The position numbers and the translations under genes were made by a program. From assembly GCF_002150735.1 (NCBI RefSeq), contig NZ_MUKA01000058.1, positions 1 to 64,000 on the forward strand: DNA of 64,000 nucleotides, given 5' to 3'. Origin of the DNA: Streptomyces africanus (GTDB taxonomy: Bacteria > Actinomycetota > Actinomycetes > Streptomycetales > Streptomycetaceae). The notes beneath the pieces were generated by a model, which saw only the letters and a list, made by a program, of their open reading frames with translations, did not search any database and was not told where the DNA came from. This document shows positions 9,131 through 34,000 of this stretch, piece after piece; the stretch's first letter is position 1, and the number at the start of each line of letters is the position of its first letter.

Positions 9131-9157
9131 GGCCCCGGAGCATCACGCTCCGGGGCC
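9131..9157 (-). terminator. Terminator after graspetide operon
   Basis: A 10-bp stem (GGCCCCGGAG / CTCCGGGGCC) lies just downstream of the maturase stop codon. The same stem recurs downstream of the GntR gene at 10775-10801. Confidence 0.6.
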
Positions 9158-10774: not shown

Positions 10775-10801
10775 GGCCCCGGAGCATCGAACTCCGGGGC
10801 C
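10775..10801 (-). terminator. Terminator after GntR gene
   Basis: A 10-bp stem with a 7-base loop (GGCCCCGGAG / CTCCGGGGCC) lies just past the GntR stop codon, with the same stem as the hairpin at 9131-9157. Confidence 0.6.
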
Positions 10802-17769: not shown

Positions 17770-19149
17770 TCATCCGATCGTGCGCGCCGCCGATGCCAGG
17801 CCCTTGGACGAGGTCGTGCCGGTCACCGTCGGCTTCACGATCCGCTGGTGCCAGGCCGGCCACACCATCGCGTCCAGCCGGTCAGGACTCCAGTCCAGCT
17901 CGTCGTACCAGGTGCACATCTGGTCCTCCAGCTCCGCGAACTCCCCGACCATGTGCCAACGGCCTTGCTCAGACAACGCGCTGACCGGCTCCGCGCGGAC
18001 CTTCTTCCCCCGCGTCGCGCGCACGACCTTGATGGGGATGTTGACGCCCATGGCGTCGGCGGCGGCGCGGATCGTGTTGACGGCCATGTCCCCACCGAAG
18101 TTCACCTCACAGCAGATGTCGTCCGCCTCGTAGTCGACGGCCGCCTGCACGGCCCGGCGGCCCCAGCCGTCCGGGGAGAGGTGGCACGTGCGGTCGGCGA
18201 GGACGTAGCCGTGGGCGAGCATCGCCGGACGCTCCCGGCCGTTCACCACGCGCAGGTGCTCCTGCATCGCCTTGCCCACCACCACGATTCCCTGCTCGCC
18301 CCGACCGCCCGAGGGGTCCACGCCGACGGACGTGCGCATGAGGGGCGGCAGGTCGCTCGGGCGCAGCCGGTGCTCGTCGATCATCGGCCGGGTCCACAAC
18401 GCGTTCTCGTCGGCGTCGATGATCTCGGCGTGGAGTTCCTGGCGGCCGATCTGCGTGCCCGCGTAGGCGTCCTCCAGCGCGTTGCGGATGTCCTCCGGTA
18501 GGTGCGGGTTGTCGTACATGGACGCCCGGGTGCGCACCACGTTGGCTATCTCGCCGGCCGCGAGTTTCTTGATCAGGGTCCGGGGCTTCGGGGTGGTGGA
18601 GGCTATCCAGTGCGGACGCGGCCCGGTGCGAAGACCGAACCGCATCTGGTCCCAGGTCTGGTCGAGGTAACGCCAGGCGGCCAATTCCTCCAGCCACGAG
18701 AGGCAGCGGTTACCGCCGGAGCGCAAACGCTCGACGTCCTCGGGGCTGTGCGCGCCGAAGATCTTCGCCTCGGAGCCGTTCGGCCACCGGATGACCGTGC
18801 CGCCCTGGACGGTGCGCATCACGGCCTCGGGGCTGTGCACCCGAAGGCCCGACGGTCCGGCGTAGCAGGACGTCGCCGCGTCGCCGAGGGTCGGCGCGAT
18901 GATGCCTATCCAGTGCGGGATCGGGCCGGGCAGGCACGGCGGGCCCATGACGTGCTCGTGGACGTACCGCGCGCAGGCGTCCGTCTTCCCCGCACCACGG
19001 CCGGCGAGGAGCAGCCAGCCGTACCAGTCGCCATCTGGCGGGACCTGGTGGGGCAGCGGAGTCCAGCGCGGCTCGGTCACCAACCGCGCGTGCATCAGCA
19101 GCTTCTCGGCCGCCGCGCGGCTCAGCATCCGATCCACCATGAGGGTCAT
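17770..19149 (-). CDS. terL: Terminase large subunit
   Basis: A 459-residue packaging motor and nuclease. The Walker A is LLLAGRGAGKTDA (~residue 45), and the acidic CLSWLEELAAW (~145) is the Walker B/catalytic Glu region. The nuclease domain starts with VGVDPSGGRGEQG (~270), with a second acidic site near EVNFGGD (~340) and LDAMVWP near the C terminus. The ATG at 19149 is used; a second in-frame ATG follows nine bases later and there is no strong ribosome-binding site. A longer frame crossing the lysin gene is rejected. Confidence 0.88.
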   Translation of the reverse strand: MTLMVDRMLSRAAAEKLLMHARLVTEPRWTPLPHQVPPDGDWYGWLLLAGRGAGKTDACARYVHEHVMGPPCLPGPIPHWIGIIAPTLGDAATSCYAGPSGLRVHSPEAVMRTVQGGTVIRWPNGSEAKIFGAHSPEDVERLRSGGNRCLSWLEELAAWRYLDQTWDQMRFGLRTGPRPHWIASTTPKPRTLIKKLAAGEIANVVRTRASMYDNPHLPEDIRNALEDAYAGTQIGRQELHAEIIDADENALWTRPMIDEHRLRPSDLPPLMRTSVGVDPSGGRGEQGIVVVGKAMQEHLRVVNGRERPAMLAHGYVLADRTCHLSPDGWGRRAVQAAVDYEADDICCEVNFGGDMAVNTIRAAADAMGVNIPIKVVRATRGKKVRAEPVSALSEQGRWHMVGEFAELEDQMCTWYDELDWSPDRLDAMVWPAWHQRIVKPTVTGTTSSKGLASAARTIG

Positions 19150-20408: not shown

Positions 20409-21224
20409 TCAGGTCGTCGCGGCTTCGGGCAGCAGTCCGAGGGCGCGGGCCTTGCGCAGAGCCTCGGGCAGCCGCGTCCCCTTGTCCATCCACGCCACGT
20501 CCAGCCGCCGGTATGCCTCGGACAACCTGGACGCGCACGAGCCCGGGGGCATCTCCAGCCTGGTCGCGGTCTGCGACAAAGACGCGCCCTTCTCCAGCTC
20601 CAGCAGGATGCTGACCTGCGTGTCAGACAGATGAACCGGGGACTGCGCGCTGCTCGGCCGGGGCGGAGGCTGGTTCCTCAGCAAGCCGCGCATCCGGGCC
20701 TCGCGTAGGGCCACCTCGCGGCGGACCGGCGGCGGGAGCTGTGCGACGCCGAGCGCGGCGTACGCCTCAGCAGTGAGGGACTTCACGGTCCGGTGGCTGA
20801 CGCCCCACGCCTTGCACACCTGCTCCTGCGTGCGCCCCGCGTCGAACGCGCGCAGGAGCCTCACGTGGGGTTCGGCGAGCTGGACCGGCCGGCGCGTGGC
20901 GGCCTCGGCGTCCATGCGTTCCCGGTTGCCTCGCTTGCAGGCGGCGCAGATGGGTTCGTCCCGCTTGAGGTGGCGGCGGTAGGCCGCCAGCAGACCGCAG
21001 TCCTCGTACGGGCCTATGTGCCCGGCCAGCAGGCCGTTGCGGACGGCCTGCGCGGCGGTGGCCACGCCCATGACCGCGTAGATGCGGGCGCAGGTCTTCC
21101 GTACGACGCCCGGGGCCCCATCGGTCTTGCGGGCGATGTCCGCGCAGGTGTGGCCGGTGGACAGCAGCCACAGGATGTGACGTTGACGCTCGGTCAGGAC
21201 GATGGGCTGCGGTGCGGTGTCCAC
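20409..21224 (-). CDS. Triple LuxR-type HTH regulator
   Basis: A 271-residue protein with three GerE/LuxR-like helix-turn-helix units: VLTERQRHILWLLSTGHT near residue 10, VQLAEPHVRLLRAFDAGRT near 110 and VHLSDTQVSILLELEKGAS near 200. A CxxC pair (CAACKRGNRERM) lies between units one and two. GTG at 21224 with AAGGAG eight bases upstream. Its promoter region carries two tandem copies of the phage-wide palindrome, so it is probably under the same control. A late-gene activator is a reasonable inference, because it heads the lysis/terminase region. Confidence 0.65.
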   Translation of the reverse strand: MDTAPQPIVLTERQRHILWLLSTGHTCADIARKTDGAPGVVRKTCARIYAVMGVATAAQAVRNGLLAGHIGPYEDCGLLAAYRRHLKRDEPICAACKRGNRERMDAEAATRRPVQLAEPHVRLLRAFDAGRTQEQVCKAWGVSHRTVKSLTAEAYAALGVAQLPPPVRREVALREARMRGLLRNQPPPRPSSAQSPVHLSDTQVSILLELEKGASLSQTATRLEMPPGSCASRLSEAYRRLDVAWMDKGTRLPEALRKARALGLLPEAATT

Positions 21225-21252
21225 CTCGGCCGCTCCTTCCGTAGATTGGGGT

Positions 21253-21285
21253 GGGCCCCGGGTCACGTCCACTGACCCGGGGCCC
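21253..21285. terminator. Strong GC hairpin in leader of triple-HTH gene
   Basis: A 13-bp perfect stem (GGGCCCCGGGTCA / TGACCCGGGGCCC). It lies between the operator-bearing promoter and the regulator start, so in the minus direction it could act as an attenuator. Confidence 0.55.
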
Positions 21286-21337
21286 TTGTCGACCGGCGAC
21301 GTCCCGGGCAGAATCACCGGGCCTGCCAGGACACTTT

Positions 21338-21351
21338 CATTTAGTTAAATC
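21338..21351 (-). promoter_or_regulatory. Operator copy (CATTTAGTTAAATC)
   Basis: One mismatch from the palindromic consensus GATTTANNTAAATC; the first of two tandem copies upstream of the triple-HTH gene. Confidence 0.5.
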
Positions 21352-21361
21352 CCCGATTGAT

Positions 21362-21375
21362 GGTTTTGCTAAACC
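21362..21375 (-). promoter_or_regulatory. Operator copy (GGTTTTGCTAAACC)
   Basis: The second tandem copy; extended arms ATGGTTT / AAACCAT make it a near-perfect palindrome. Centre-to-centre distance to the first copy is about 24 bp. Confidence 0.45.
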
Positions 21376-21384
21376 ATCTGGGCC

Positions 21385-22467
21385 TCACAGCTCCAGCCAA
21401 AGCGGGTTGTCCAGCGACCAGCGCACGGTGGTCTCGATGGACTTCTCCAGCGGCACAGGCGGCTCCCACCCGAGGCGGGCCATGCGGGAGCCGTCCAGGG
21501 CGTAGCGCAGGTCGTGGCCGGGGCGTGAGGCGTGGAAGGCGATGGGCTCGATGAGGTCGTCCACCACGGCGGAGTCCAGACCCATAGCCTCCCCCACCAG
21601 GTGCACCAGCTCTACGTTGTTCACCTCGCGCTCGCCGACGATGTTGTACCGCTCCGGCCGGGTGAAGGCGCCGTCTCGGTACTGCGCCGGGCCCATGGCG
21701 ATGCGTATGGTCTCGCCGCCGAGGGTGGTCACCTCGGGCTCGTCCTCGGTGTACCGCCGCGTCAGGAACAGCCAGGCGTCAGCCAGATTCCGTGCGTGCA
21801 GGTAGAAGCGGGAGCCGGGGGTGCCGTCGGGCGCGGTGTGTACCAGGAGCGGACGACCTGCGCGCAGACACTTGATGATCTTCGGCAGGAACTTCTCGCC
21901 GTCCTGCATCTCGCCGATGATGTTCATGGTGTTGGTCAGGACGACCGGCACGCCGTAGGTCCGCCAGTAGCTGATCGCTATGACCTCCTGCGCGGCCTTG
22001 CTCGCCGAGTACGGGTTGGACGGCACGGCCGGCTCCCACTCCGCGTGCCGGTGGTCCCCGTAGGCCGGGCCGTAGACCTCGTCCGTGGACATCTGGAGGA
22101 ACAACCGGGGCTTGATGGCCCGCGCGACCTCCAGGATGTTGAGCATCAGCGAGGTGTTGTTCTGCACGAACGTCACCGGGTGAGCGATGGAGCGGTCCAC
22201 GTGGCTCTCGCTCGCGACATTCATGATGACGTCGCAGTCCTCGAACTGGTGCAGCGTCAGCGGGTCGGCCGGGGCTCGCATGTCCCAGTGCACGACGTCC
22301 ACCCGATCCGTCCACCGCAGATCGCATACCGCCGAGGCGATCCGGGCTGGCAGGCCCTTGTGGTGGAAGCTGACCGGACAGGTGATGTCCCAGTCGGTGT
22401 TCGTCAGCAGGTGGCGCAAGAGGTGGCTGCCGACGAAGCCCGACGCACCGGTGAGCAGAACGCGCAT
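21385..22467 (-). CDS. NAD-dependent nucleotide-sugar epimerase/dehydratase
   Basis: A 360-residue extended SDR enzyme, closest in pattern to dTDP-glucose 4,6-dehydratase/UDP-sugar epimerases. Nucleotide-binding LLTGASGFVGSHL is at the start, the catalytic MSTDEVYG region near 115, and YSASKAAQE supplies the Tyr-Lys pair near 150. The ATG at 22467 follows the recurrent leader and a class-2 promoter. It is encoded beside the terminase and base-modification genes. It could supply a modified sugar for DNA-base or virion glycosylation; a second epimerase and two glycosyltransferases are elsewhere in the window. Confidence 0.82.
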   Translation of the reverse strand: MRVLLTGASGFVGSHLLRHLLTNTDWDITCPVSFHHKGLPARIASAVCDLRWTDRVDVVHWDMRAPADPLTLHQFEDCDVIMNVASESHVDRSIAHPVTFVQNNTSLMLNILEVARAIKPRLFLQMSTDEVYGPAYGDHRHAEWEPAVPSNPYSASKAAQEVIAISYWRTYGVPVVLTNTMNIIGEMQDGEKFLPKIIKCLRAGRPLLVHTAPDGTPGSRFYLHARNLADAWLFLTRRYTEDEPEVTTLGGETIRIAMGPAQYRDGAFTRPERYNIVGEREVNNVELVHLVGEAMGLDSAVVDDLIEPIAFHASRPGHDLRYALDGSRMARLGWEPPVPLEKSIETTVRWSLDNPLWLEL

Positions 22468-22502
22468 GGCCCCTCGTCTCCTTGGTCCCTGATCGTGGCC
22501 GG

Positions 22503-22531
22503 ATGGTAGCCAGGGACCGGAGAATCGCCGA
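22503..22531 (-). promoter_or_regulatory. Class-2 promoter for epimerase
   Basis: Minus strand: TCGGCG, 17 bases, TACCAT. The best match to the class. Confidence 0.55.
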
Positions 22532-22640
22532 ACAGCCCAGGAAACGCAGGAACCGCCCGGTGCGGCGCCGGGCGGTTCCAGAGCTGAGGCGGTGCTCATG
22601 AGCCCGCCGTCCCGAGTGTCGTACCCAGACGGCCCGCCGC

Positions 22641-22895
22641 TTACTCGCTGGACATCTGGTCACGCACCGTCGCGTCGTAGGTGCGCTCGACGTAGAGCAC
22701 CTCCTGCTCGGTGCCGTTCGCGTAGTCGGCGCGCAGCGTCGCCAGGGCCGTCTCCAGGTACGGCTGGAACTCCTCGAACGCCGTCCGCCGGTCACCGCTG
22801 TTCGTCGTGACCGTGATCTGAACCGGCAGATTGTTGCTGGTCGCGAGCGTGTAGGTGATCCGCGTGGTCTCGAACCCGTCAGTGGGAAGGGGCAC
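22641..22895 (-). CDS. Small hypothetical protein
   Basis: An 84-residue soluble protein (PLPTDGFETTRITYTLATSNNLPVQITV...), probably two beta strands then a helix. GTG at 22895 with GGAGG five bases upstream. It sits directly after the small terminase gene. Function unknown. Confidence 0.55.
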   Translation of the reverse strand: MPLPTDGFETTRITYTLATSNNLPVQITVTTNSGDRRTAFEEFQPYLETALATLRADYANGTEQEVLYVERTYDATVRDQMSSE

Positions 22896-22960
22896 GTCTG
22901 CCTCCTGTGTCGTGGGTGAGTCCCGGATGATGCCACCGAACGCCACGCGCACCTACCAGC

Positions 22961-23593
22961 TCACTCCGGCTCCTCTGCCTCTCCGACGACCTCGCCCTCC
23001 AGGACGCGCAGGTGCGCGCCGGCGGCCTCCAGCATCCGCTGCCGCTGCGCGGGCTCCAGCTCAACCGCGTTGGCGCCGGCCAGGATCGCCTCCACGACCA
23101 CGGTCGTCTCTTCGTCGACCCGGCGGTCCAGGGCGATGGTCAGCTTCTCCGAGGCGTCCGTGCCGTCGATCTTCGCCTGGCGTTCCTCGATGCGCATCAG
23201 CCGGTCGATGGCCGCGAGGACGGGCCCGCTGTCCCGCAGCGGATTGCCCTCCTCATCGCGGACGATTTGGCCCGCGTGCAGCACGTAGTGCGGCCGGGCG
23301 AGCACCGCGTGGACCTGGCGGCGCAGCCCGTCCAGCCGCATCCGCGCGGCCTCACGGTATTCCTCCAGCCCCATGCCGAGTTCCTTGTTGGCCTGCTTCA
23401 GCGCGCGGGAGACGTCCACGCACGCGGCGGCGGCCGACGGGTTGCCCTCGGAGTCCAGGTAGTGCGGGGCCATCTGCTCAGCGACCTGCTGCCAGCTCAG
23501 GCCCCGGTTCTTCAGTTCGATGGCCTTCGCGCGCCGCTGCGCCACCATCGCCCGGTGGCTCGGCTGCTGGTTGGGTGGATCACCCTTCGCCAT
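22961..23593 (-). CDS. terS: Probable terminase small subunit
   Basis: A 210-residue protein with an N-terminal helix-turn-helix (KAIELKNRGLSWQQVAEQM), a long central helical region and a C-terminal helix rich in Glu (EAAGAHLRVLEGEVVGEAEEPE), the organisation of phage small terminases that recognise DNA and recruit the motor. It is separated from the large subunit by 3.8 kb holding an epimerase, regulator and lysin. It directly follows the base-modification operon, consistent with the same transcript. The small-terminase call is an inference from fold pattern and context. Confidence 0.6.
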   Translation of the reverse strand: MAKGDPPNQQPSHRAMVAQRRAKAIELKNRGLSWQQVAEQMAPHYLDSEGNPSAAAACVDVSRALKQANKELGMGLEEYREAARMRLDGLRRQVHAVLARPHYVLHAGQIVRDEEGNPLRDSGPVLAAIDRLMRIEERQAKIDGTDASEKLTIALDRRVDEETTVVVEAILAGANAVELEPAQRQRMLEAAGAHLRVLEGEVVGEAEEPE

Positions 23594-23614
23594 AGTCCTT
23601 AGCCTCCCTAACGG

Positions 23615-24517
23615 TTAACGCGGTTCACGCAGGACGCCCTTGGTGCGCTCGCGGTACTCCCGGGCCCGGCTGATCTCCTCGGCCTCGCTGCCGCACTTAG
23701 TCATCGCGGTGCGCATGTAACTGACGACCGAGATCCGCTCGGCTCCGCAGGTCTCGCAGTACGCCGTGCGCTTCTCCCCGCAGGCACAGACGAGGGCCGT
23801 GTTGCCGTGCCACTGGTGAGCGTCCATCAGGATCAGGTCACCGTCCTGGAGATCGACCGCGACGCGGAACTCCGGGAAGACGAACCGGCCGCCGGTGTAC
23901 TCGCCCCGTCGCAGACAGAAGATCGTACTGAACCCCTTGTCCAGGTCACCCTTGTCCGTGTGGACGCCGGTCGGGTACGTGTTGTTGACAGTGATCGTCG
24001 TGAACGGGGTGTGTGGGACGACCCAGTCCGGATGCGTCTGCTCGATCTCCTCCATCTGCGCCGCGTACCGCTCGGGCACGTGCGTGCGCATGTTGTCCGC
24101 GACGGCTTGGAGCGCCGGGCGCAGCGCCTCCCACCTGGGGAGGTTCCGACCGGTCCACGCCGTCAACCGGCAGAACTTGAACGTGCCGTTCGGGTCGAAC
24201 GAGCCGAGGATGGATGAGCTGACGTACTTGAAGTACTGGCGTTTCTGTTCCCCCGGCCGGACGGCCTGTGAGCCCGAGGCCGGGCCCCGGTTGTGGGTTT
24301 TGTCGCCGCGCAGCGAATGCAGGATCTCGTACTGCTCCTCGGTCACGACGTCGCGCATCGCGCCGGGCAGGTAGACGCACAGCGGCTGCCCGTTGGGCAT
24401 GAACACCCGGGACGGGCCGGTCAGCAGCACGTTGTAGGCGTCGTCGCCGATGACCTTGCCGATCTTCTCGTCCAACTCCTGCTTGCTGATGCGCGAGCGC
24501 AGGCGAATGGAGATCAC
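23615..24517 (-). CDS. TET/JBP-family DNA base dioxygenase
   Basis: A 300-residue 2-oxoglutarate/Fe(II) dioxygenase of the phage TET/JBP type, which hydroxylates methyl groups of thymine or 5-methylcytosine in DNA. The metal ligands are visible as GVHTDKGD (His and Asp, ~187/189) and QWHGNT (His, ~236); the co-substrate Arg is likely in RISVVSYMR (~262). Preceding TITVNNTYPTG and following GRFVFPEF fit the family. A Cys cluster (CAC...CETC) sits near the C terminus. GTG at 24517 overlaps the kinase stop (GTGA), so the two are co-translated. No cytosine methyltransferase is seen nearby, which favours thymine as substrate. Confidence 0.83.
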   Translation of the reverse strand: MISIRLRSRISKQELDEKIGKVIGDDAYNVLLTGPSRVFMPNGQPLCVYLPGAMRDVVTEEQYEILHSLRGDKTHNRGPASGSQAVRPGEQKRQYFKYVSSSILGSFDPNGTFKFCRLTAWTGRNLPRWEALRPALQAVADNMRTHVPERYAAQMEEIEQTHPDWVVPHTPFTTITVNNTYPTGVHTDKGDLDKGFSTIFCLRRGEYTGGRFVFPEFRVAVDLQDGDLILMDAHQWHGNTALVCACGEKRTAYCETCGAERISVVSYMRTAMTKCGSEAEEISRAREYRERTKGVLREPR

Positions 24518-25089
24518 CAGGTCACCTCCAGGGCAACGGGCGGGAAGACGTCGCGCACCTCGGCCACCATCTCCGCCAGGCTGTACTGCTCCACATCGAT
24601 GCACCGCAGCCTGACGCCCGGGGCGCCGGCGGCCCACTCCGATATGCGCTGAGCCCGGGTGGCCGCGCCCTTGCGCCAGGACGGGTTCTGCTTCGCGCCG
24701 CGCTCGCGCCACCGTGCGTCCAGTAGCGCCGGCGAGGCCATCAGCTCCACCACCGTCACCGCGACGCCCTGTCCGGCGAGGCCTCCGAGGAAGGGCCGCG
24801 TGGCCAGGCGAGCGCCCTCACCGAGGGCGAAGTGGACGTAGGCAGCCGACAGGAACTGAAGTGCCCGGGGCCCTATGTCCATGGCCAGGGCGTCGGTGCC
24901 GGGGAAGTCCTCGCGGGGCACTCCGAGTTCCAGGCCGACGGTGCGGCCGGTCGCCGGGTGGTTCAGCCGCGTGTGAGGGACGGCGTGGTGACGGCTCACC
25001 TCAAGGTCCCAGCCGGTGCGCAACTCCCGCGCCAGCGTGGACTTGCCCACCCCGGGCGGGCCGACGATGTAGAGCAGCTCGCTGATCAC
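24514..25089 (-). CDS. P-loop nucleotide/base kinase of modification operon
   Basis: A 191-residue P-loop kinase with Walker A IVGPPGVGKSTLARE at residues ~7-20 and a lid-like ALLDARWRERGAK near 130. In thymidine hypermodification pathways a small P-loop kinase phosphorylates 5-hydroxymethyluracil in DNA so that the group can be displaced. The same role is inferred here from its place between the FAD enzyme and the dioxygenase. GTG at 25089 overlaps the upstream stop (GTGA). It could alternatively be a free-nucleotide kinase. Confidence 0.72.
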   Translation of the reverse strand: MISELLYIVGPPGVGKSTLARELRTGWDLEVSRHHAVPHTRLNHPATGRTVGLELGVPREDFPGTDALAMDIGPRALQFLSAAYVHFALGEGARLATRPFLGGLAGQGVAVTVVELMASPALLDARWRERGAKQNPSWRKGAATRAQRISEWAAGAPGVRLRCIDVEQYSLAEMVAEVRDVFPPVALEVTW

Positions 25090-25922
25090 AGACCCTCCCC
25101 GGCCAGACGCGCCGCGAGACGCTGAGCAGCGGCCGGCGCTGTGGAGTACCCGGAGCGCCCGAAGCCCGTCAGGGCCCACACCCTCGGCTCCACCTCGCAC
25201 GCGGCAGGGCCCGCCGGCGGGGTGTACCTCACGCCCTCCCGGTAGACCCAGGGCGCCTCGGGGTCGACCAGCCCCTCGTGGCACATGCGCGAGAGGATGC
25301 GTTCAGCTCGCTGCCGGGCACCGGAGGCGGTCGACGCCTTGGAGGCCCCGACCCGCGTGAACGTCCCGTCCCAAGCCGCCGTGTGGCTGAGCCGGTCGGT
25401 GACGCGCAGCAGAGCGAGCGGCCCTGGCCCGGCGAGGTGTCTGCCGGGCGCCTCCCATACGCCTCCGTAGGTGAGTGCCCGCGATGCGCCGGTCGCGGAC
25501 CGGGCCGTGGAGAGTACTAGGGCGTCCGTCTCGGTCCGGGTGCCGTCGGCGAGTGTGACAGCCACGACGTGGCCCGCCCCCTTCCACGCGGTGACGTGTT
25601 GGGCCACATCCGGGTCGACCAGAGGCCCGAGAGGGTCGACGAGGTAGTGGTCACCCTGCCGGACCGTACGCCCGCGCCGGAGATCCTTGACCTCGGCGGA
25701 GTCGTCGACCAGCCACCCGTGCCTGCCGTACCAGGCCAGAGCCGCCCGCACGTCGGTTCGCTGGTCGCCCGTCCACCAGGCGGTCCGGGTGAAGGCGAAC
25801 GCGCACCGGCTCGCCGCGCTCTGCGAGTACCCGTCGGCCACCGTCACATCGTGCCCGCGTTCACGCAGTGCACGGGCCACGCAGCTTCCGGCGATCCCCG
25901 CGCCGGCCACCATCACTCTCAC
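25086..25922 (-). CDS. FAD-dependent amino-acid oxidase-like enzyme
   Basis: A 278-residue flavoprotein with an N-terminal dinucleotide fold (VMVAGAGIAGSCVARALRERGHDVTVAD) and a C-terminal FAD segment (ALTGFGRSGYSTAPAAAQRLA), similar to the D-amino-acid oxidase superfamily. In phages that hypermodify thymine, an FAD enzyme processes a glycine moiety first attached to the base; that role fits here. GTG start overlaps the stop of the transferase-like gene (GTGA). Substrate identity cannot be read from sequence. Confidence 0.72.
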   Translation of the reverse strand: MRVMVAGAGIAGSCVARALRERGHDVTVADGYSQSAASRCAFAFTRTAWWTGDQRTDVRAALAWYGRHGWLVDDSAEVKDLRRGRTVRQGDHYLVDPLGPLVDPDVAQHVTAWKGAGHVVAVTLADGTRTETDALVLSTARSATGASRALTYGGVWEAPGRHLAGPGPLALLRVTDRLSHTAAWDGTFTRVGASKASTASGARQRAERILSRMCHEGLVDPEAPWVYREGVRYTPPAGPAACEVEPRVWALTGFGRSGYSTAPAAAQRLAARLAGEGL

Positions 25923-26836
25923 TGCGGTGTCCTCTCAGGTATACGGCCGGTGTCCCGGTAGACCTTCCGGCGCCCGGCGTCCACCCCGTTCCACCCGTTC
26001 AGCTCTCCGAGGTAGGCCCTCGGCAGCTCCTGGAGACGGGCGGCATAGGCGGCTCCGGCCAGCTCGCTGGGGACCTGGTCGAGCTGATGCTGCATCTTGT
26101 CGATGTCGTGGCCCGGGTAGTAGCCACCCCGGCTCATCGAGTGGAAGTCGCACAGTGACGTCTCAGCGGTCTCGACGCTGACCGAGGGCACCGCCCCGGC
26201 CATGAGGCTCACCAGGCCGTCGGAGACTCGGTTGAGTTCCCGAACAGCCGCAGGGCCGTTGCCGGACGGCAGGCCGGAGTACAGCAGTCCCAGGCCCTTG
26301 CGAGGGCCGGACGAGTGGGCGTGCCCCATGTCCGGCGCCGCGACGTTCGCCCCGCATACCTGTTGCAGCATCTCGCAGGTCTTGAAGGCGGCCCAGCGGC
26401 CGTTGCCCGGGATGCTCAGGAGCCGGCCGGAGAGCATCGCCCAGTTGTCCCGGGGGCCGCCGCCGTCCAGACCCCGCATGAGCCAGCCGCTCAGGCCTCT
26501 GGGGTCTTCGCGGGCAACTTGCTGGACAGCGGAGAGGTGGCGGTGCAGCGCTCTGCGGGACCAGTGGCCGCGCCGCTCGGTGGCCACCGGCAGATCCATG
26601 ACAGCGTCGGAGGCTCGGGCCGGGTCGGGGACGGCCGCGAAAGCACGCAGTGCGGAGCCGAGGTGGTAGTAGGCGACGTGGCACACGACCAGCCACACCC
26701 GTTGTTCGTCCGTCAGGGACAGGCTGTCGGCCATCTGCCGCAGCACCGGGTACACCGGGTCCATGTCCCGGGTGCTCGTCTGCAACCGGTGGAAGGCGAG
26801 GTAGTCGTCCAGCAGCGCGCTGTTCGGTTCGCTCAC
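25919..26836 (-). CDS. Amino-acid:DNA transferase-like (aGPT-Pplase family)
   Basis: A 305-residue helical protein resembling alpha-glutamyl/putrescinyl-thymine pyrophosphorylases, which replace the pyrophosphate of activated hydroxymethyluracil with an amine. The diagnostic stretch is near residues 135-190: LLSIPGNGRWAAFKTCEML followed by APDMGHAHSSGPRKGL. GTG at 26836 overlaps the ParB-like gene stop. Together with kinase, FAD enzyme and dioxygenase it reconstructs a hypermodification pathway. Recognition is from remembered family motifs. Confidence 0.7.
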   Translation of the reverse strand: MSEPNSALLDDYLAFHRLQTSTRDMDPVYPVLRQMADSLSLTDEQRVWLVVCHVAYYHLGSALRAFAAVPDPARASDAVMDLPVATERRGHWSRRALHRHLSAVQQVAREDPRGLSGWLMRGLDGGGPRDNWAMLSGRLLSIPGNGRWAAFKTCEMLQQVCGANVAAPDMGHAHSSGPRKGLGLLYSGLPSGNGPAAVRELNRVSDGLVSLMAGAVPSVSVETAETSLCDFHSMSRGGYYPGHDIDKMQHQLDQVPSELAGAAYAARLQELPRAYLGELNGWNGVDAGRRKVYRDTGRIPERTPQ

Positions 26837-27663
26837 GCCGCATCAGCCGGGGCCGCGTAGATCTCCTCGCCCCGGGCGAGGCAGTCCGCCAGCGTCAAGC
26901 CCGAGTCGGCCCCGTCCATCACCGCCACGGCGACCCGGGCCGCCCGCAGTACGACCTCGCTCTGGGTCATGGCGCCGAAGTGCTCGCGCAGCGCCAGGAT
27001 GCACCGGCCCAACTCGTCGGCCTCGGCGGTCGGCATGGCGAGGAAGATGTCCCGCACGCCGCGTGACTCGTACGGCTGGCTGTTCTCGCCGCCGTGGGAG
27101 TCCATGCGCGCCTGGCGTTCCTCGGGGTCGTCGTTGTAGCCGGCGACCGCAGGGGCGGTGTACTCGACGACGTCCTCCTCCTCGTACCGGGCCAGGATCG
27201 AGTCGGCTTCCTCGTCGGTGTAGCCGGTGCCGGCGGGGCCGCTCTCCAAGGAGCCGAGGATGGCGGCCAGGGCCTCCTCGTCATAGGCACCGTCGTCGGC
27301 CGCCTTGTTGTCGACCAGGTTGATGCGCTTGGCCGTGTCGTCGTCGCACTCGATGAGGTGGGAGAGCGCCGTCGGGTCGTCGGCGTCCACGTTGATGCAG
27401 AGCTGGCACGGCCTGTCGTTGGCCAGTTCCCAGTCCCGGCAGGCGTCACGGCCGGACTCCTCGTGCCGCAGCAGCGCCAGGTAGGTGTGGTTCCCGGCGA
27501 GGATCGTCATCGTCTCGCCCTGCCGGCGGACGGTGAGGGGCTTGTACTGGCCGTTCGCGCGCAGGGAGTCCAGGATCGTCTCCACGTTGCCCCGGCGCGC
27601 GTTGCCCTCGAACGGAGTGAGATCCTCCAGCGAGACCTGTTCGGTTCCGATGGTCGTGGTCAT
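26833..27663 (-). CDS. ParB-like nuclease-fold protein
   Basis: A 276-residue protein whose first ~110 residues form a ParB/sulfiredoxin-like domain (SLEDLTPFEGNARRG; NGQYKPLTVRRQG; ILAGNHTYLALL). The remainder is acidic and helical without an obvious DNA-binding HTH, unlike partition ParB. ParB-like domains recur in operons for complex DNA-base modification, so a guiding or regulatory role there is more likely than plasmid partition. It is the first gene of the overlapping operon; ATG preceded by GAAGGGG. Confidence 0.75.
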   Translation of the reverse strand: MTTTIGTEQVSLEDLTPFEGNARRGNVETILDSLRANGQYKPLTVRRQGETMTILAGNHTYLALLRHEESGRDACRDWELANDRPCQLCINVDADDPTALSHLIECDDDTAKRINLVDNKAADDGAYDEEALAAILGSLESGPAGTGYTDEEADSILARYEEEDVVEYTAPAVAGYNDDPEERQARMDSHGGENSQPYESRGVRDIFLAMPTAEADELGRCILALREHFGAMTQSEVVLRAARVAVAVMDGADSGLTLADCLARGEEIYAAPADAA

Positions 27664-27762
27664 GGCCGCCCCTTCGCCTGGTCGTCGGACGCGGCGATGT
27701 TAAGACCGGACCGGGGCATGATCGTTCCGGTGCTGTGGCCCCGTGAGCGGAGCGAGCGGTGC

Positions 27763-27810
27763 ACGACGAAGCCCGGGGCCGTGAGGGCTCCGGGGCTCGG
27801 TGGTTCGTCG
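27763..27810. terminator. Imperfect GC hairpin
   Basis: CGACGAAGCCCGGGGCC pairs imperfectly with GGCTCCGGGGCTC and a distal TTCGTCG. It separates the unit 27.8-30.6 kb from the modification operon. Confidence 0.4.
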
Positions 27811-27815
27811 GGTGG

Positions 27816-28280
27816 TCAGAGGCAGGTGGACCGCTTGGTCCGGCCGGTCTTCCGCCAGGGCCCGAGCAGTGCGACGACGGCCCGCAGGGCGGCCCGCATG
27901 GCCGGGGCGTCGGGGTCCTCGAACCTCCCCGCCTTGCGCAAGGGGTAGTTGTCCTGCTCCGGGTCGCCGGTCTTCGGCGCCCACTCCAGCCGGGTGCCGT
28001 CGGGCCCCAGCTCCTCCAGCGCCGTCTCCGCCCGGCTCAGCACCGTGCGCACGGAGGTGAGCGCCTCTCCGCTGTCCCGGCCCCGATCGGCCGACGCGCC
28101 GGGAACCTCGGTCACGGTGACCTGGGGCGAGTCGTCGCGGTCGTAGAACGCGTCCGTGATCCACCTCGTTGCTACGTCGGTCAGTTCACGGTCCTCGTAG
28201 TACTCGTCTCCGTGCTCGGCGTCAGGGTGGCCGCGCCACTCGACGTCCACGATCAGCCTCGTGCGCCTCGGCTCAGCCAT
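27816..28280 (-). CDS. Hypothetical protein
   Basis: A 154-residue acidic protein of unknown family (MAEPRRTRLIVDVEWRGHPD...), with beta-like LIVDVEW and VTVTEVPG segments and a basic C terminus (GPWRKTGRTKRSTCL). It overlaps the preceding gene by eight bases and is the last gene of a six-gene operon. Confidence 0.5.
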   Translation of the reverse strand: MAEPRRTRLIVDVEWRGHPDAEHGDEYYEDRELTDVATRWITDAFYDRDDSPQVTVTEVPGASADRGRDSGEALTSVRTVLSRAETALEELGPDGTRLEWAPKTGDPEQDNYPLRKAGRFEDPDAPAMRAALRAVVALLGPWRKTGRTKRSTCL

Positions 28281-28575
28281 CTGCCTGTCCCTCCTCGGTG
28301 ACGACCAGGACCCTGTGGCCGGCCGGGAACTCGCCCGTCAGCGTCGCTCCGGTCTGGCTGCACGCCGTGATGCGCTTGCCCTCCCGGGCCGTGACGGTCC
28401 AGGCGATACCGCGCATCGGCATCTCATGCACAATGCCCGCGCCGTGCACTCGGCCGCCCTCTCCGGCGAAGTAGGCGGCCCCGGTGCCGGGGTTGACCCA
28501 CGTGTCCCCGACGGCCAGTTCGTCGGCCGGGCGCTCTCGCACGTCGCCCCATGTGTACGGGTGATCTGTGCTCAT
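28273..28575 (-). CDS. Hypothetical beta-rich protein
   Basis: A 100-residue protein (MSTDHPYTWGDVRERPADELAVGDTWV...), with regularly spaced short strands suggesting a small beta-barrel. Its ATG overlaps the previous stop (ATGA). Function unknown; it is embedded in a chain of overlapping accessory genes. Confidence 0.55.
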   Translation of the reverse strand: MSTDHPYTWGDVRERPADELAVGDTWVNPGTGAAYFAGEGGRVHGAGIVHEMPMRGIAWTVTAREGKRITACSQTGATLTGEFPAGHRVLVVTEEGQADG

Positions 28576-28934
28576 TCCTCGTTCCTCGCTTCCTTGGTCG
28601 GCAGTTGCAGCGGCGGCCGGATGCAGTGCGCCCAGTCCTTCGGCGCGCACTTGTCGCTCCGCTCCAAGGGCCAGGGCTTCGCTTCCCGGCCGCACCTCCC
28701 GCAGACGTACATCCACGAGCCGTCCTCGTTGCGGTACGCGTGGCGCCCGGCGTCCTTGTTGGCCCGCAGGCGCTGGGCAACGGCGTACTTCGTTCCCGAG
28801 GCCCGGCACTCCAGACGCCGCGCGCTGGCCAGGGCCCGCTCGTTGCCCCGGTGCCGGTACAGCTTCCCCGTGGCGGTGAAGGAGACCGGGTTACGGCACA
28901 GGGGGCAGGTGCCCCCGCTGCTCGCCCTGCCCAT
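28572..28934 (-). CDS. Zinc-ribbon-like hypothetical protein
   Basis: A 120-residue basic protein with Cys pairs CPLC near residue 10 and CGRC near 80, enough for one or two zinc ribbons, and many Arg/Lys residues consistent with nucleic-acid contact. ATG at 28934 overlaps the upstream TAA (TAATG). The longer frame upstream is Arg/Gly shadow sequence. Confidence 0.55.
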   Translation of the reverse strand: MGRASSGGTCPLCRNPVSFTATGKLYRHRGNERALASARRLECRASGTKYAVAQRLRANKDAGRHAYRNEDGSWMYVCGRCGREAKPWPLERSDKCAPKDWAHCIRPPLQLPTKEARNEE

Positions 28935-29116
28935 TACTCCCGGCCCCCTCGGTTGCGCAGGGCCTGAGCGATGTTCAGGATCTCGTCCGTGATGGCGTCC
29001 ACGGCGTCCTGCCCGAGTCGCTTCACGAGGTCGTCGGGCCCCCACTCGCCCATGGCCGCTTCCAGGATCAGCCCCGCCCGGAAGTTGGCCTCTCGCCGGA
29101 TCTCCCGCTTGTTCAT
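28934..29116 (-). CDS. Small helical protein
   Basis: A 60-residue helical, charged protein (MNKREIRREANFRAGLILEAAMGEWGPDDLVKRLG...). Start ATG with weak upstream purines; it lies three bases after the upstream gene and overlaps the next. Function unknown. Confidence 0.5.
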   Translation of the reverse strand: MNKREIRREANFRAGLILEAAMGEWGPDDLVKRLGQDAVDAITDEILNIAQALRNRGGRE

Positions 29117-29119
29117 CGC

Positions 29120-29779
29120 TCAGCCCTCCACCGGGTTGGCCGTGATGACGGCGCGGATGGCCTTGATCGACGGGGTGTCGTGCAGGCGCCTGCGGTCCGG
29201 CGTGACGGACAGCCCGAACGGGGTCCGGCGTGCGACGCCCGGGGCGACGAAGTACGACAGGTCGTACTTCCAGAGCCAGCCTTCGTCGGTGGCCCGGCTC
29301 ACCCGGACGTCCAGGGCGTACCCGTCGTCACGCGACGCCCACGCCTGCGCCGTGGTCCATCCGTTGGCCTCGGCGAGCGCGAACAGCTCCGCGACCGGCT
29401 TCGGCAAGGCGTAGCCGGCGGGCGCCCGGTCCACGATGCCTGCCTTCAGGCGCCGCAGCGTGGTGTCCCGGGTGTACTTCTCCGCAGGAGTGAGCACGGC
29501 GTCGCGCTCCAGCGCGGCGGCCAGGGTGACCGTCCGGCCGCTGTAGCGGCAGGTCCACCCGGTGCCGGTCGCATCGGCGATCACCGGCCGGCGCTTGCCG
29601 TCCCTGTCCCACGTCGACTTCGGCTCGTGGGTGGTCAGGACGCCGTCCCGGACGCTCGTCGTGTTGCCGCACGGGCACAGCGCCTCCACGGTGCGCAGCA
29701 GGTCGTAGAAGGTGTTCGGCGGGATGATGCCCGGGTCGTGCTTCGCCCCAGTGGCCAGAGTCTCAGCGAGGGTCGTCAT
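29120..29779 (-). CDS. Hypothetical protein
   Basis: A 219-residue protein of unknown family. Near residue 35 a CPCG motif precedes beta-strand-like segments; the C-terminal half includes WLWKYDLSYFVAPGVARRTPFGLSV. ATG at 29779 overlaps the upstream stop (ATGA). It may be a DNA-interacting accessory protein, but nothing specific is visible. Confidence 0.5.
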   Translation of the reverse strand: MTTLAETLATGAKHDPGIIPPNTFYDLLRTVEALCPCGNTTSVRDGVLTTHEPKSTWDRDGKRRPVIADATGTGWTCRYSGRTVTLAAALERDAVLTPAEKYTRDTTLRRLKAGIVDRAPAGYALPKPVAELFALAEANGWTTAQAWASRDDGYALDVRVSRATDEGWLWKYDLSYFVAPGVARRTPFGLSVTPDRRRLHDTPSIKAIRAVITANPVEG

Positions 29780-30306
29780 GCCGTCCCCTCCGTCTCCGGG
29801 ATCGGGTCGACGTGGCGGAGGGAGATCCAGGCGCCGTGCCCGGTGACGAACACGACGGCGGTGTGCCCCTCCGCCACCCACGCCGCGCTGCGGGTGCGCC
29901 CCGTCTCGCCGGCGCCCTCACGCGCTCCGGTCCAGTAGCGGACCGTCTGGCCCTCGGGGTACGTCAGGTTCCACGCCTCCGCGCGCTCGGCCGGCGTCGG
30001 GCCGTCGTTGGCCACGCGGGAGCCGTTGCGCAGGGCCGCGTCCAGCGACGCGAACTCCCGGCGGTAGAGGTGGTGGCCGTCGTAGGTGTAGCCGTTCACC
30101 TGGAAGCGGGCGCCGTCGTCGCTGTAGTCAAGCACGGCCTGCGCGGTGACGCCGACGACCTTCGGGTGCTCCATGCCCGGCTCCCCGGGCTTCCAGTCGG
30201 CGCCGACCTTGTCGGTGTGCCGGCGGCGGTCGATGATCTTCCGGGCCCGCTCGATGCGGTCGATGCCGCTCGCGATGTGTCCCAGGTCGTAGGTGTCGGT
30301 GCTCAT
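29776..30306 (-). CDS. Hypothetical protein
   Basis: A 176-residue protein. The N-terminal helix is basic (IERARKIIDRRRHTDK) and later regions are beta-rich with aromatic residues (FQVNGYTYDGHHLYRREF). ATG overlaps the previous gene stop. No family recognised. Confidence 0.5.
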   Translation of the reverse strand: MSTDTYDLGHIASGIDRIERARKIIDRRRHTDKVGADWKPGEPGMEHPKVVGVTAQAVLDYSDDGARFQVNGYTYDGHHLYRREFASLDAALRNGSRVANDGPTPAERAEAWNLTYPEGQTVRYWTGAREGAGETGRTRSAAWVAEGHTAVVFVTGHGAWISLRHVDPIPETEGTA

Positions 30307-30644
30307 CGTCCTGCCCTCCGCGCCCGGTCCTCTGCGATCTCGGCGTGCAGCATGTCGCGGTAGACCTCGTACGCCTCCGCGAAGGTGTCGGTGCGCTCAG
30401 TCCCCAAGTACCACTTGGCGAAGCCCTTGCCGACGAAGATGCCGCTGCGCTCGGCCCACCGCTCGATCCGGGCCGGGGACGCCAGCCACGCGGCGTACGC
30501 GTCGGTGTAGCGGTCCGCACGCCCGGTGTCCTCGTACCACTCAGGGAAGCCGTCTCGGGCTTCCTTGCCAGCGCACTCGGCCCACTGCCGGGCCGCCGCG
30601 ATGCGCTTGCTGCGCTCCGCCGTTTCCTTATGCCGCCAGTCCAT
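30303..30644 (-). CDS. Small Trp-rich hypothetical protein
   Basis: A 113-residue helical protein with two similar segments (FPEWYEDTGRADRYTDAY and FAKWYLGTERTDTFAEAY), which looks like an internal duplication of about 50 residues. It is the first gene of the 27.8-30.6 kb operon, starts behind the recurrent leader and follows the operator-bearing promoter at 30693-30706. Function unknown. Confidence 0.55.
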   Translation of the reverse strand: MDWRHKETAERSKRIAAARQWAECAGKEARDGFPEWYEDTGRADRYTDAYAAWLASPARIERWAERSGIFVGKGFAKWYLGTERTDTFAEAYEVYRDMLHAEIAEDRARRAGR

Positions 30645-30692
30645 GAGGCCCTGCCTTCCTTGGTCGTGGTCCGGCCATCAGCCGAACCATTC

Positions 30693-30706
30693 GATTTAAT
30701 TAAACC
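30693..30706 (-). promoter_or_regulatory. Operator/promoter (GGTTTAATTAAATC on minus strand)
   Basis: Minus strand: GGGGTTGT box, 14 bases, CATGGT -10 region, palindrome. It drives the operon 30644 to 27816. Confidence 0.65.
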
Positions 30707-30730
30707 ATGGCCGGTGCGCCGGAACAACCC

Positions 30731-30922
30731 CTATGGGTGGGCCGCCAGTCGCAGCCGGTCCCCGCCCTCGGCCCGTATGAGCTGCACCGCCAGCGCGTCC
30801 TCGTAGGAGAGCACCGACGCCTCGCAGACCCGGCCCAGCCGGACGGAGTGCACCGGGAGCGTGTCCCACATCTGCACCGGTTCACCGCACGCAGGGCACT
30901 CAGCCCACTCGCCTCGCAACAC
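30731..30922 (-). CDS. Small zinc-binding-like protein
   Basis: A 63-residue protein with ECPACGEPVQ and one further Cys, a partial zinc ribbon. GTG at 30922 with GGAGG six bases upstream and the recurrent leader before it. Located between the polymerase gene and the operator-bearing promoter, with its own class-2 promoter. Confidence 0.55.
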   Translation of the reverse strand: MLRGEWAECPACGEPVQMWDTLPVHSVRLGRVCEASVLSYEDALAVQLIRAEGGDRLRLAAHP

Positions 30923-30955
30923 GGCCCGCCTCCTGCTCTTCCTGGTTCCTTGGTC

Positions 30956-30984
30956 ATTACGTCACTTGTCCGGCGAATCGCCGA
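30956..30984 (-). promoter_or_regulatory. Class-2 promoter for gene 30731
   Basis: Minus strand: TCGGCG, 17 bases, CGTAAT. Confidence 0.4.
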
Positions 30985-31024
30985 ACGCGCCGGGGCCGGA
31001 CGGTGAGGCCCGGCCCCGGCTCGG

Positions 31025-34000
31025 TCAGTCCTTCGCGTAGCAGGAGGCCCAGTCACGGGCCGCTTTGGAGGCCCCGGCCGTGATCGGCACGCCCTTGAAC
31101 TCGAACGTGAACGCCTCCAGCACGGCCTCCTTGACGCCCTCGGCCATGTGTTCGGGGACGCACAGGACGACCTCGTCGTGCACGACGCAGCGCAGCCACT
31201 CCAGGGCCTCGGGGATCATGTCGACCAGGCGCAGCAGCGCCTCGCACATGATGTCCCGGGCGCCGCCCTGGCCCATGAGGGCCGGGGCCTGCGTCCAGGC
31301 ACGGTCGGGGTTGCAGCGCATCTTGCGACCGAACCCGTTGTCCAGCATCTCGCCGGCCGCCGCCCGTTCCCGGACCTCGGTCCGCCAGGCGCACAGCCCG
31401 GGGTACTGCGCGTTCATCTGGTCGTCGAACTTCTGCGCCAGCTCCAGCTCCACACCGCTGTTGGCGATGCCCTTCACGGACATGCCGTAGTTCCAGCCGT
31501 GGCCGATGCGCTTGGAGTTGTCGCGCCACTCGCCATCGTGGCGGCCGAACACGGCATCGGCGATGCGCGAGTGGGCGTCTTCGCCGGGAGCGAAGTTCGC
31601 CATGTACGCCGGGTCCTGGCAGTGCCCGGCGATGGCGCGCATGTCGACCTGGTCCAGGTCGAAACAGATCAGGACGTGGCCGTCGTCGGCGATGAGGGGT
31701 CGCCTCTGCGTGACCTTGCCGCCGCGCTTGGCCATGTTGGTGACCGAGGGGCGGACGTACGCCCACCGGCCGGCGCCCTGAAGGTCGCCGACCTGCGGGT
31801 GGATCCGGTCGCCGACGAGGTGGTCCATGATCTCGGCGTACTTCTGGACCGACGAGGTCACGGTGATGATGTGGCCGCACATCTCGCGCAGGGCGTCTAC
31901 GTCGGCGCCGCGCTCGGCGAACATGCGCAAGACGTTCGGGTTGAGCATGGCGGGCACCTGCCGGGCCCCGGAGCCCTTGCCCACCATGTACGACGCCTCG
32001 CCCAGCGCGTCCTTGTTGAGGCTGATCAGCCCGGAGGCCGTCTTGGGGTAGTGCACCGCACCCCGGTCGGCGAAGGCCTTGATGATCGCCTCACGGCCTT
32101 CGTTGGTGGACAGCGGGGCCTTGACGGACTCGTCGGTGAAGACGCGGTTCTTGCCCCGGCCCCTACCGACGGACTTGGTCAGGGGTACGCCGCAGTGCTC
32201 GTGCAGCCACTCCAGGGACTCCTGCCGCTTGGCCGCCTCCGCGTCGACCAGCTCGCGCAGGACGGGGACGTCGACCTTCCAGCCGGTCAGGGTGGGCCGG
32301 TGCTGGATGTGGGCGACCCGCATCTCCCGGCGGACGTAGTCCGAGGGCTCGCCCAGAGCGCGCCGCACGCCCCGGGTGGCCTGGAGATCGCCGCTGAAGT
32401 ACACGCTCAGCTCGTTGACCGGGATGCGCCCGTACCCGAGGTCCGTGCGCTCGGCCTTGTCCAGTTTGCGGCCGCCGGCCTCCTCCGGACCGTACTTGAA
32501 GGCGAGCGCGGCCAGGTCGTCCGTCTTGCCGGGCAGGCCGTTGCGCTCGGCTACCTGGTCCAGGCCGTAGTAGCCCTTGGTCGCCCACGGCTTCTCGTGC
32601 GCGGCGCCGGGCGGGTCGATGGTCTGGACCCACCGCAGGGTGTCCATGGTCTTCGCGGCCAGCTTGTCGTAGTCGGCGCCGTGGTGACGGGCGAGCGCCA
32701 TCAAGTCGAACCCGAGCAGGTTGTGGCCGTACAGCTCGTCGGCGTCCTCCAGCCGCTTGATCAACTCCTCCACGGAGTTGACGACGACCTCGGTGCCGTC
32801 CTCGGTGACGTAGCCGGCGAGGCGGACGTACGGGTCGCCTCCGAGATCCTTGTGGACGAACAGGCGCTTGGCGCTGTGGGTCTCCAGGTCGAACCCGATG
32901 ACGCCGCCGGCGCGCGGCGGGGTGGCCGCGTCATCCGGAGCCGGGGACGGGGCGGGGACGGTGGCCGCGCGGGGAGCCTGATCAGCTTCCGCTTCCGCGA
33001 ACGGATCACCCGCGAAAGGGTCCGCGTCCGGGTCGGTCAGAGGACGTGTACCCGCTGTACCCTCTACCCCTGTTCCTCCTATGTGTGAGCCAATTTCTCG
33101 GTTATAGGGAGGAGAGGGTACAGGGGGTACACCATTGTCCTCGGTGGGGTTGACCTCGTCTTTTCCGTTCGGGTCCTGGAAGCGCACCCCGAGCCACGCC
33201 TGGTAGTTGACGCCCTTGGGCTCGTGACCGCCCAGAGTCGATCGCCCGTCCCGCGCCCGGATCTTCTTCCGCTGCACGCCGTTCCGCGCGCACTCGTCGT
33301 GGCTTCCGAATCGGGACACGAACGTGCGGTCCGTCCATTCCCGGTGACCTTTGTCCTCCAGGTACCGGTTGAAGACCTCGTGCAGCTCCCGGGCGAGGAT
33401 GTGGGAGTTCCAGTCGAACGTCAGGCAGTCCCCGATGAACGACAGAATCAGGTCCGACTCCTTGCGCCACTCCAGCGTGTCGTCCTCCACCCGCTTCGGC
33501 GGCGGCGGCATGATCTGTCCGGCCGCGTACCACTTGCGGGCGCCCTCCACGGCCCACGCCAGGACGGCCGCCGACACCCGCTCATCCGTCGCGAGGCGCT
33601 GCCGCAGGGTTCCGTCACCGGGCTTGTCATTCGGGCCCGTGCACGGCTCCCCAGCCTTGCGGAAGGTGAACGGGAAGCACAGCAGCGCCAGACGCCGCCA
33701 CGTACCGTGGTCGGTTTCGTCCACCAGAGGCCTGTGGTTCGTGTTGATGATCAACGTGTGCGACGTCGTGAAGGTGACCGGGTCCTGCCTCATCCGGCGG
33801 GCCTTGATGGCCTTCGTACCGGCGAGCTGCTTGGCCCGGTTGACGTCCAGTCGCTTGGCCTCCGGGGTCTCCTCCAGTACCGCGAGCCGGGCCCCCATGA
33901 AATCCATCATCTCCGTGGGGTGGTTGTCGCTTGCGTTCCCGAGCAGGGCCCGGTGGGACACCACTGTGTGGTATCCGTCCTTCTCGCCGGCCGCGCGGGC

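Follow-up and report, generated by a model that had tools for sequence, protein, structure and literature searches.

Cassettes in which a TET/JBP dioxygenase accompanies a ParB-like protein, a P-loop kinase and an amino acid:DNA transferase (ADDT) are already in print for phages of actinobacteria. The paper on Rhodococcus phage Tonitrus names a five-gene thymidine hypermodification system, and the authors of the account of Gordonia phage CaiB cite Iyer et al. 2013 for the cassette type. The cassette lies at the left end of Gordonia phage Wooper, Rhodococcus phage Tonitrus, Mycobacterium phages Phelemich and LilMcDreamy, and Microbacterium phage Kozie. A second point of comparison is Pseudomonas phage PaMx11, whose system involves glycinylthymidine and 5-aminomethyl-deoxyuridine (5-aminomethyl-dU). 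Here, we describe a five-gene cassette in a 64,000-nucleotide stretch of Streptomyces africanus DNA (the window), which is very likely a DNA-base hypermodification system. Its modified base is probably thymine, and the best explanation of the gene set, held with moderate confidence on the strength of homology and structural models, is a full chain from thymine to 5-aminomethyl-dU on finished DNA. The type of cassette is said to have been predicted by Iyer et al. 2013; new here are a different TET lineage, encoded last rather than second, a repeated change of TET type, a predicted product, and a swappable transferase module that the kinase accompanies.

The cassette occupies the minus strand from 27663 down to 23615, where the preliminary description had placed it, and its five open reading frames are joined by four successive GTGA overlaps, each of the last four beginning at a GTG within the GTGA shared with the preceding stop. 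The first gene encodes a ParB-like protein (26833..27663; 276 aa, ATG start; PHROG 723, E 1.7e-38) for which Pfam returns no hit with E of 1 or below, and most related cassettes that reach far enough are also headed by a ParB-like gene. It is followed by the ADDT (25919..26836; 305 aa; PF18724, 1.4e-17, 64.7 bits against a cut-off of 26.2), the present name of the family earlier called aGPT-Pplase2, and by a flavin adenine dinucleotide (FAD)-dependent enzyme of the DAO fold (25086..25922; 278 aa; PF01266, 6.8e-12, 46 bits against 27.9). The last two genes encode a P-loop kinase of the Ploopntkinase3 family with the Walker A motif GPPGVGKST (24514..25089; 191 aa; PF18751, 4.8e-24, 85.4 bits against 27) and a TET/JBP Fe(II)/2-oxoglutarate (2OG) dioxygenase of lineage B, or TETB (23615..24517; 300 aa; PF12851, 3.3e-17, 62.6 bits against 34.9). 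Pfam and PHROG thus return the same five families that had been named from the letters alone (ParB-like, aGPT-pyrophosphorylase-like, FAD amino-acid-oxidase-like, P-loop kinase, and TET/JBP), and profile searches against TET/JBP, aGPT-Pplase and DAAO place the dioxygenase and the transferase within their families, above the Pfam cut-offs. Several database labels were rejected in favor of the Pfam assignments: 'terminase small subunit' (phrog_800) on the kinase, which is Ploopntkinase3; 'queuine tRNA-ribosyltransferase' (phrog_6059), a weak match of the window TET, for which Pfam gives Tet_JBP; and, on TETs in database records, the names 'queuine tRNA-ribosyltransferase' and 'SNF2 DNA repair protein'.

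The overlaps themselves were considered as a special feature and rejected, as they are common on this contig. By our own gene calling, with the start of the FAD gene placed by hand, 19 of the 108 same-strand neighbor pairs that the 92,743-base contig contains share 4 bases, and a second run of three such overlaps is found at 36356-37478. The probability that the four named pairs all overlap by 4 bases is about 7e-4, before correction for the choice of place. What goes beyond chance is the gene content. A ParB-like gene, a TET, an ADDT, a kinase, and either the FAD enzyme or a protein here called W5 co-occur in 68 kept loci, 43 with a lineage-A TET and 25 with a lineage-B TET including the window's contig; as an ADDT or a TET served as the query for each locus, one member of each set is guaranteed by construction. 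The survey behind this count kept 80 of 108 relatives in one search and the best 80 of at least 573 in the other; it contains the window's own contig (L020, L100), and its loci are linked by shared ancestry. The five-part count was made after dropping 19 named rows, comprising short helper loci, the window, pieces of phage ZL12, and repeat contigs.

The window ADDT retrieves 17 phage records, all of actinophages, with some phages recorded twice. In local blastp against Wooper, Tonitrus, Phelemich, LilMcDreamy and Kozie, the ADDT and kinase are present in all five and the ParB-like protein in four (none is found in Kozie's stretch), and a homologue of the FAD enzyme is found in Phelemich and Kozie. 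The window shares with CaiB, Wooper, Tonitrus, Phelemich and Kozie the ParB-like gene (Kozie's stretch apart), TET/JBP, ADDT and kinase, as well as the 4-base overlaps and a place upstream of the terminase. It differs in gene order, which is ParB-ADDT-FAD-kinase-TET in the window, whereas the known actinophage cassettes have a lineage-A TET in second place. The fifth gene also differs: that of the window is FAD-like, whereas Wooper and Tonitrus carry W5, a more distant protein that also occurs in locus L095 and that profile comparison relates only weakly to the FAD family (hhalign probability 58.8%). In LilMcDreamy, gene 4 (L006:2656-3759) encodes an Asp/Arg-hydroxylase-like protein (PF05118) at the usual place of the FAD enzyme.

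The predicted chemistry draws on PaMx11, whose gp46 and gp47 are homologous to the window ADDT and FAD enzyme. A profile of 35 ADDT proteins has 25qc (3.9e-25) and the glycinyltransferase 8z2m (1e-12) as its sole matches at E up to 0.1, and the motifs DxDPxY, ERR and ETxLC occur both in the window ADDT and in the alignments to these solved transferases. With PaMx11 gp46, the window protein shares 23% identity (blastp E 5e-6). For the FAD enzyme, a profile of 27 proteins has as its top match the flavin-dependent lyase 8z2o (with 8z79) at 2.1e-17 over the full length, the next being glycine oxidase at 7e-10. An AlphaFold model of the window protein, with a mean confidence (pLDDT) of 91.4, returns gp47/NGTO (8z79/8z2o) in the top three rows of a Foldseek search (E 6.7e-16 to 6.6e-15; template-modeling score up to 0.78), and identity to gp47 is 27%. 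The title of entry 8z79 reads 5-N-alpha-glycinylthymidine FAD-dependent lyase. As the homology is full length and closer than to other DAO-fold enzymes, we propose the FAD enzyme as a candidate glycinylthymidine-type lyase. These matches to the solved PaMx11 lyase and glycinyltransferase fit the earlier suggestion that oxygenase, kinase, transferase and flavin enzyme act in one pathway.

In the chain that we envisage, the TET/JBP dioxygenase would turn thymine in DNA into 5-hydroxymethyluracil (5hmU) by oxidizing its methyl group, and the P-loop kinase would phosphorylate the resulting hydroxymethyl group. ADDT would then swap the phosphate for an amino acid, most likely glycine, and the flavin enzyme would cleave this adduct to leave 5-aminomethyl-dU. 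The ParB-like protein might serve to load the enzymes onto DNA or to direct them there, and all steps would take place on polymerized DNA, starting from ordinary thymine. A glycine-derived aminomethyl group is a reasonably probable product, with both the glycine donor and the end product deduced from the PaMx11 relatives. The same chain could end differently, with thymine carrying another amino-acid adduct or keeping the amino acid, through a non-glycine donor or a different FAD reaction. Such an outcome would accord with identities of only 27% to gp47 and 23% to gp46 and with the diversity of partners at the fifth gene (FAD, W5, or the Asp/Arg-hydroxylase-like protein of LilMcDreamy), but it is made rather unlikely by two facts: by profile and by fold the FAD enzyme matches the glycinylthymidine lyase best, with the glycine oxidases far behind by profile, and the ADDT and FAD genes are adjacent in both the window and PaMx11 (gp46-gp47).

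The two systems differ in how the hydroxymethyl base would arise. PaMx11 has a thymidylate synthase-like protein, gp51, and the 22 of its proteins that were examined include no TET match; a TET is present instead in the window system. The thymidylate synthase-like family PF00303, whose detection in PaMx11 serves as a positive control, has no match in the window's own genome or in any of 28 TET-cassette records, a set that includes many fragments. The simplest account, by analogy, is that 5hmU arises in DNA through the TET, which takes the place of the nucleotide-level synthase of PaMx11, the downstream chain being common to both. The preliminary description held that the whole chain runs on polymerized DNA from thymine. 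The first part of this claim is supported, because no thymidylate synthase-like gene was found that would make 5hmU at the nucleotide level; the second part is less secure, as thymine is deduced and the contig carries two C5-methyltransferase-like genes. PaMx11 also has gp48, annotated as an acetyltransferase, beside gp47, whereas the window cassette has no gene between the FAD enzyme and the kinase. No acetylated product is therefore predicted, the rest of the contig lying outside that search.

The window TET retains the ligand residues and the fold of its family. Residues H186, D188, H237 and R261 are invariant in 33/33 aligned homologues; from the TET family motifs, we take these to be the HxD...H iron ligands and the 2OG-binding arginine. 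Its AlphaFold model (pLDDT 93.5) aligns with TET2 at Z 21.5 (root-mean-square deviation 3.3, 258 residues aligned) and with NgTET1 and CMD1 at Z 19.1 each, the first row beyond the TET family having Z 13.9, and Foldseek finds NgTET1 at E 3e-13. By sequence, the TETB family matched no Protein Data Bank chain at a meaningful level, the fold match notwithstanding. The fold and the iron and 2OG ligands are thus common to the window protein and the eukaryotic TETs with solved structures (TET2, NgTET1, CMD1 and CcTet), from which it differs in sequence, the structural alignments giving only 12-17% identity.

In a quick tree of 71 TETs, lineage A (15 rows, the actinophage type) is split from lineage B (56 rows, the window type) with 100% SH-aLRT support (an approximate likelihood-ratio test), although the tree was flagged for one long lineage-A branch (L076). 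The window TET shares 26% identity with that of Wooper over 160 residues and has PHROG 24024 as its best match, and phrog_6059 is the PHROG whose label the Phelemich TET carries. The actinophage TETs of the known cassettes are not retrieved when the phage collection is searched with the window TET at E up to 1e-5, the top matches there being those of Pelagibacter phage HTVC112P and Nonlabens phage P12024L. By local blastp, similarity to the actinophage TETs is weak (best E 5e-8). Five lineage-A TETs that were scanned score 19.6 to 32.2 bits for Tet_JBP, below the cut-off of 34.9, so it is profile comparison (hhalign probability 99.9%), not the Pfam score, that ties lineage A to lineage B. In most of the complete cassettes, a lineage-A TET is encoded second (ParB-TET-ADDT-FAD-kinase) and a lineage-B TET last (ParB-ADDT-FAD-kinase-TET).

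TET type and transferase do not share one history. In an ADDT tree of 39 rows (L006, L159, L161, L166, L177, L082 and L094 omitted), the lineage-B cassettes are split, and well supported branches force at least two changes of TET type. A tree in which these cassettes have a single origin is rejected by the approximately unbiased (AU) test (p 0.0055), the grouping by TET type having been tested after a quick 46-row tree had been inspected. That 46-row tree, which has some long branches, requires at least three changes; the direction of the changes is not given by the trees. TETs of both lineages have, on this phylogenetic evidence, served related transferases. With two or more switches of TET type along the ADDT tree, we read both lineages as probable sources of one and the same intermediate.

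Several observations weigh against the chain from thymine to 5-aminomethyl-dU, the most substantial of which concern cytosine. Just right of the window, the contig carries two C5-cytosine methyltransferase-like genes (PF00145) on the plus strand, at 64734-66014 and 66317-67375, and a third PF00145 gene lies on host contig C15. The Pfam hit in the first covers its C-terminal part only. Cys-containing motifs, SPIC and PPC, are visible in the two contig translations, SPIC being in 64734-66014. With C5-methyltransferase-like genes on the contig and in the host genome, 5-methylcytosine (5mC) may be available to the oxygenase. The TET fold does not decide between thymine and cytosine, because several of the matched TET-family structures are titled with 5mC DNA. 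In addition, the fifth residue after the first iron histidine (residue 191 of the window TET) is Asp in 95/104 TETB proteins (nine were missed by the pattern) and Asn in 52/53 lineage-A TETs, or TETA (one missed by the pattern), a possible difference in base specificity. NgTET1, which we take to prefer 5mC, presumably has Asp at this position, and TET2 Asn. Phage TETs acting on 5mC have reportedly been described by Burke et al. 2021.

These points would be accommodated by a chain in which the phage methyltransferases make 5mC, the TET oxidizes it to 5-hydroxymethylcytosine, and the kinase, transferase and flavin enzyme convert this to aminomethyl-cytosine. PF00145, however, is found in only 1/25 TETB records (26 loci correspond to 25 records, and most viral records are fragments), and in 1/21 other records, among which the complete lineage-B phages HTVC112P and P12024L have none. 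A methyltransferase of the 66317-67375 type also exists without the cassette: Streptomyces phage ZL12 has a counterpart with 68% identity, and searches of phage records with the window ADDT and TET gave no hit to ZL12. The gene at 64734-66014 has distant relatives in many actinophages. Within a single transferase lineage, TETA alternates with TETB, and glycinylthymidine is, by the title of 8z79, the substrate of the flavin lyase relative whose chemistry is known. We therefore regard the cytosine route as unlikely, and aminomethylated cytosine made from phage 5mC, whether alone or beside aminomethyl-uracil, as improbable. To our knowledge, and within the openly licensed literature, no amino-acid-derived hypermodification of cytosine by a TET-kinase-transferase-flavin route is in print.

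Further reservations apply to the thymine chain itself. The choice of amino acid is not readable from homology, and Wooper, Tonitrus and L095 carry W5 as their fifth protein. The link between the kinase and PaMx11 is weak: the kinase family profile picks out gp49 at E 1.7e-9 and 28 bits among 22 chosen proteins, which in our reading makes gp49 a possible kinase of PaMx11, and blastp of the window kinase against gp49 gives no hit. The gene absences cited above are soft, because most viral records are fragments.

A role for the kinase in the transferase pathway is consistent with their distribution in the survey. Among 80 TET-query loci, which retain some near-copies, the kinase is present in 32/32 with a transferase and in 16/48 without a detected one. 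When only loci with at least 3.5 kb upstream are counted, the figures are 27/27 and 10/25 (Fisher p 7e-7, for loci that are related). Such co-occurrence is expected if the kinase activates the hydroxymethyl group for the transferase. The thresholds for kinase and transferase, and the motif patterns for the divergent ADDT (ADDT2) and for the pyridoxal phosphate (PLP) enzyme described below, were chosen after viewing the loci, and L106, scored as having a kinase but no transferase, contains a frame-broken ADDT2-like stretch.

The kinase is also kept when its partners change. In several loci near the window by TET, among them L101 with 86% identity, ADDT and the FAD enzyme are swapped for a divergent ADDT and a PLP-dependent enzyme; L022 and L023, also close by TET, retain ADDT and FAD. 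By motif pattern, the divergent ADDT is found in 15 lineage-B loci, 14 of which also show the PLP pattern. Pfam confirmation was obtained for L113 only (PF18724, 3.4e-12; PF00291, 5.6e-13; PF18751, 7.6e-29). Cassettes that combine a divergent ADDT with TETB and the kinase, mostly with a PLP fold-II enzyme by motif, are L101, L102, L105, L107, L108, L109, L112-L114 and L119, and their sequences predict a different end product. The survey points to a modular design in which the core is ParB-TET, the TET can come from either of two exchangeable lineages, and the decoration is the work of ADDT and FAD enzyme or of divergent ADDT and PLP enzyme. In L129 (8326-10891), TETB lies beside a radical S-adenosylmethionine (SAM)/SPASM enzyme, with no kinase detected. 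A small protein in this locus looks glycosyltransferase-like by eye and has no Pfam match.

The window is the first 64,000 bases of the 92,743-base contig C551, in a 9.1 Mb draft genome of 736 contigs. An IMG/VR contig of equal length that is listed as viral (IMGVR_UViG_2791355405_000002) encodes 100% identical proteins. A tyrosine-integrase-family gene lies at 13727-14806, and the terminase large subunit gene (17770..19149, minus strand; PHROG 2, E 4.7e-22), whose best-placed matches, Streptomyces phages mu1/6 and OnionKnight, make Streptomyces the probable host, is the landmark downstream of the cassette, as in the known actinophage cassettes. The frame at 31025-35362 encodes a 1445-aa primase-DNA polymerase fusion (by PHROG, primase/helicase at residues 269-735 and DNA polymerase at 819-1445), and a ParA-like gene is found on the contig outside the window. 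Together, the integrase, terminase, primase-polymerase and ParA-like genes point to a plasmid-prophage or a temperate phage. The contig ends showed no exact terminal repeat of at least 16 bases, and megablast of 20409-35362 against phage records gave no match. ZL12 is a distant relative by gene content, since it matches only 8 of 122 called contig genes. Among 100 genomes searched, ADDT is found in one, the window's own, and a relative is encoded on one other genome contig.

This setting bears on whether the cassette works, and for whom. The cassette, on one of 736 contigs of a draft bacterial assembly, might be a decayed or silent remnant in unmodified DNA; five open frames, intact overlaps and TET catalytic residues, and the retention of the same set in related contigs make this very improbable. 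A role as a defense system was also set aside, given the phage-like contig, the place upstream of the terminase, and the recurrence in phages. Related domains do occur in defense: the DefensePredictor study reports a 5-hydroxymethyluracil kinase domain in a validated defense system and aGPT-Pplase in a predicted one.

Between the cassette and the terminase lies a gene for a NAD-dependent nucleotide-sugar epimerase/dehydratase (21385..22467, minus strand; PF01370, 2e-42; longer form 21385-22491). A homologue sits between TETB and terminase in L022, L023, L058, L059, L101, L105, L114 and L119, and none was detected in L102, L106, L108 and L113. It is a recurrent neighbor, and its link to the cassette is unproven. 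Elsewhere in the window, a glycosyltransferase-like gene (phrog_14945) is directly followed by a gene for a NAD-dependent epimerase (55796-57396), a pair that might supply a sugar for the hydroxymethyl base or for the virion. A 43-base element with an AT-rich core, TTTAATTAA, occurs in six plus-strand copies (52285, 53218, 57402, 59597, 61507 and 62276) scattered across a rightward gene cluster in 70% GC DNA, perhaps as a promoter or operator. Three near-identical 45-base tandem units are found at 59073-59217 within the frame 59052-59375, and a 33-base GC-rich hairpin-like element, possibly a terminator, occurs twice, at 9125-9157 and 10769-10801.

In the openly licensed literature, TET-containing actinophage cassettes have so far been annotated with no product known for them. 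Because two consecutive enzymes match a solved glycinyltransferase and a solved flavin lyase, a specific base can be predicted and checked, 5-aminomethyl-dU. We infer that the modification protects the DNA from restriction or other bacterial defenses. With a TET replacing the nucleotide-level synthase, every step could occur on DNA, and, if the proposed chain is true, actinophages of this type would possess enzymes able to put a reactive amine on thymine in finished DNA.

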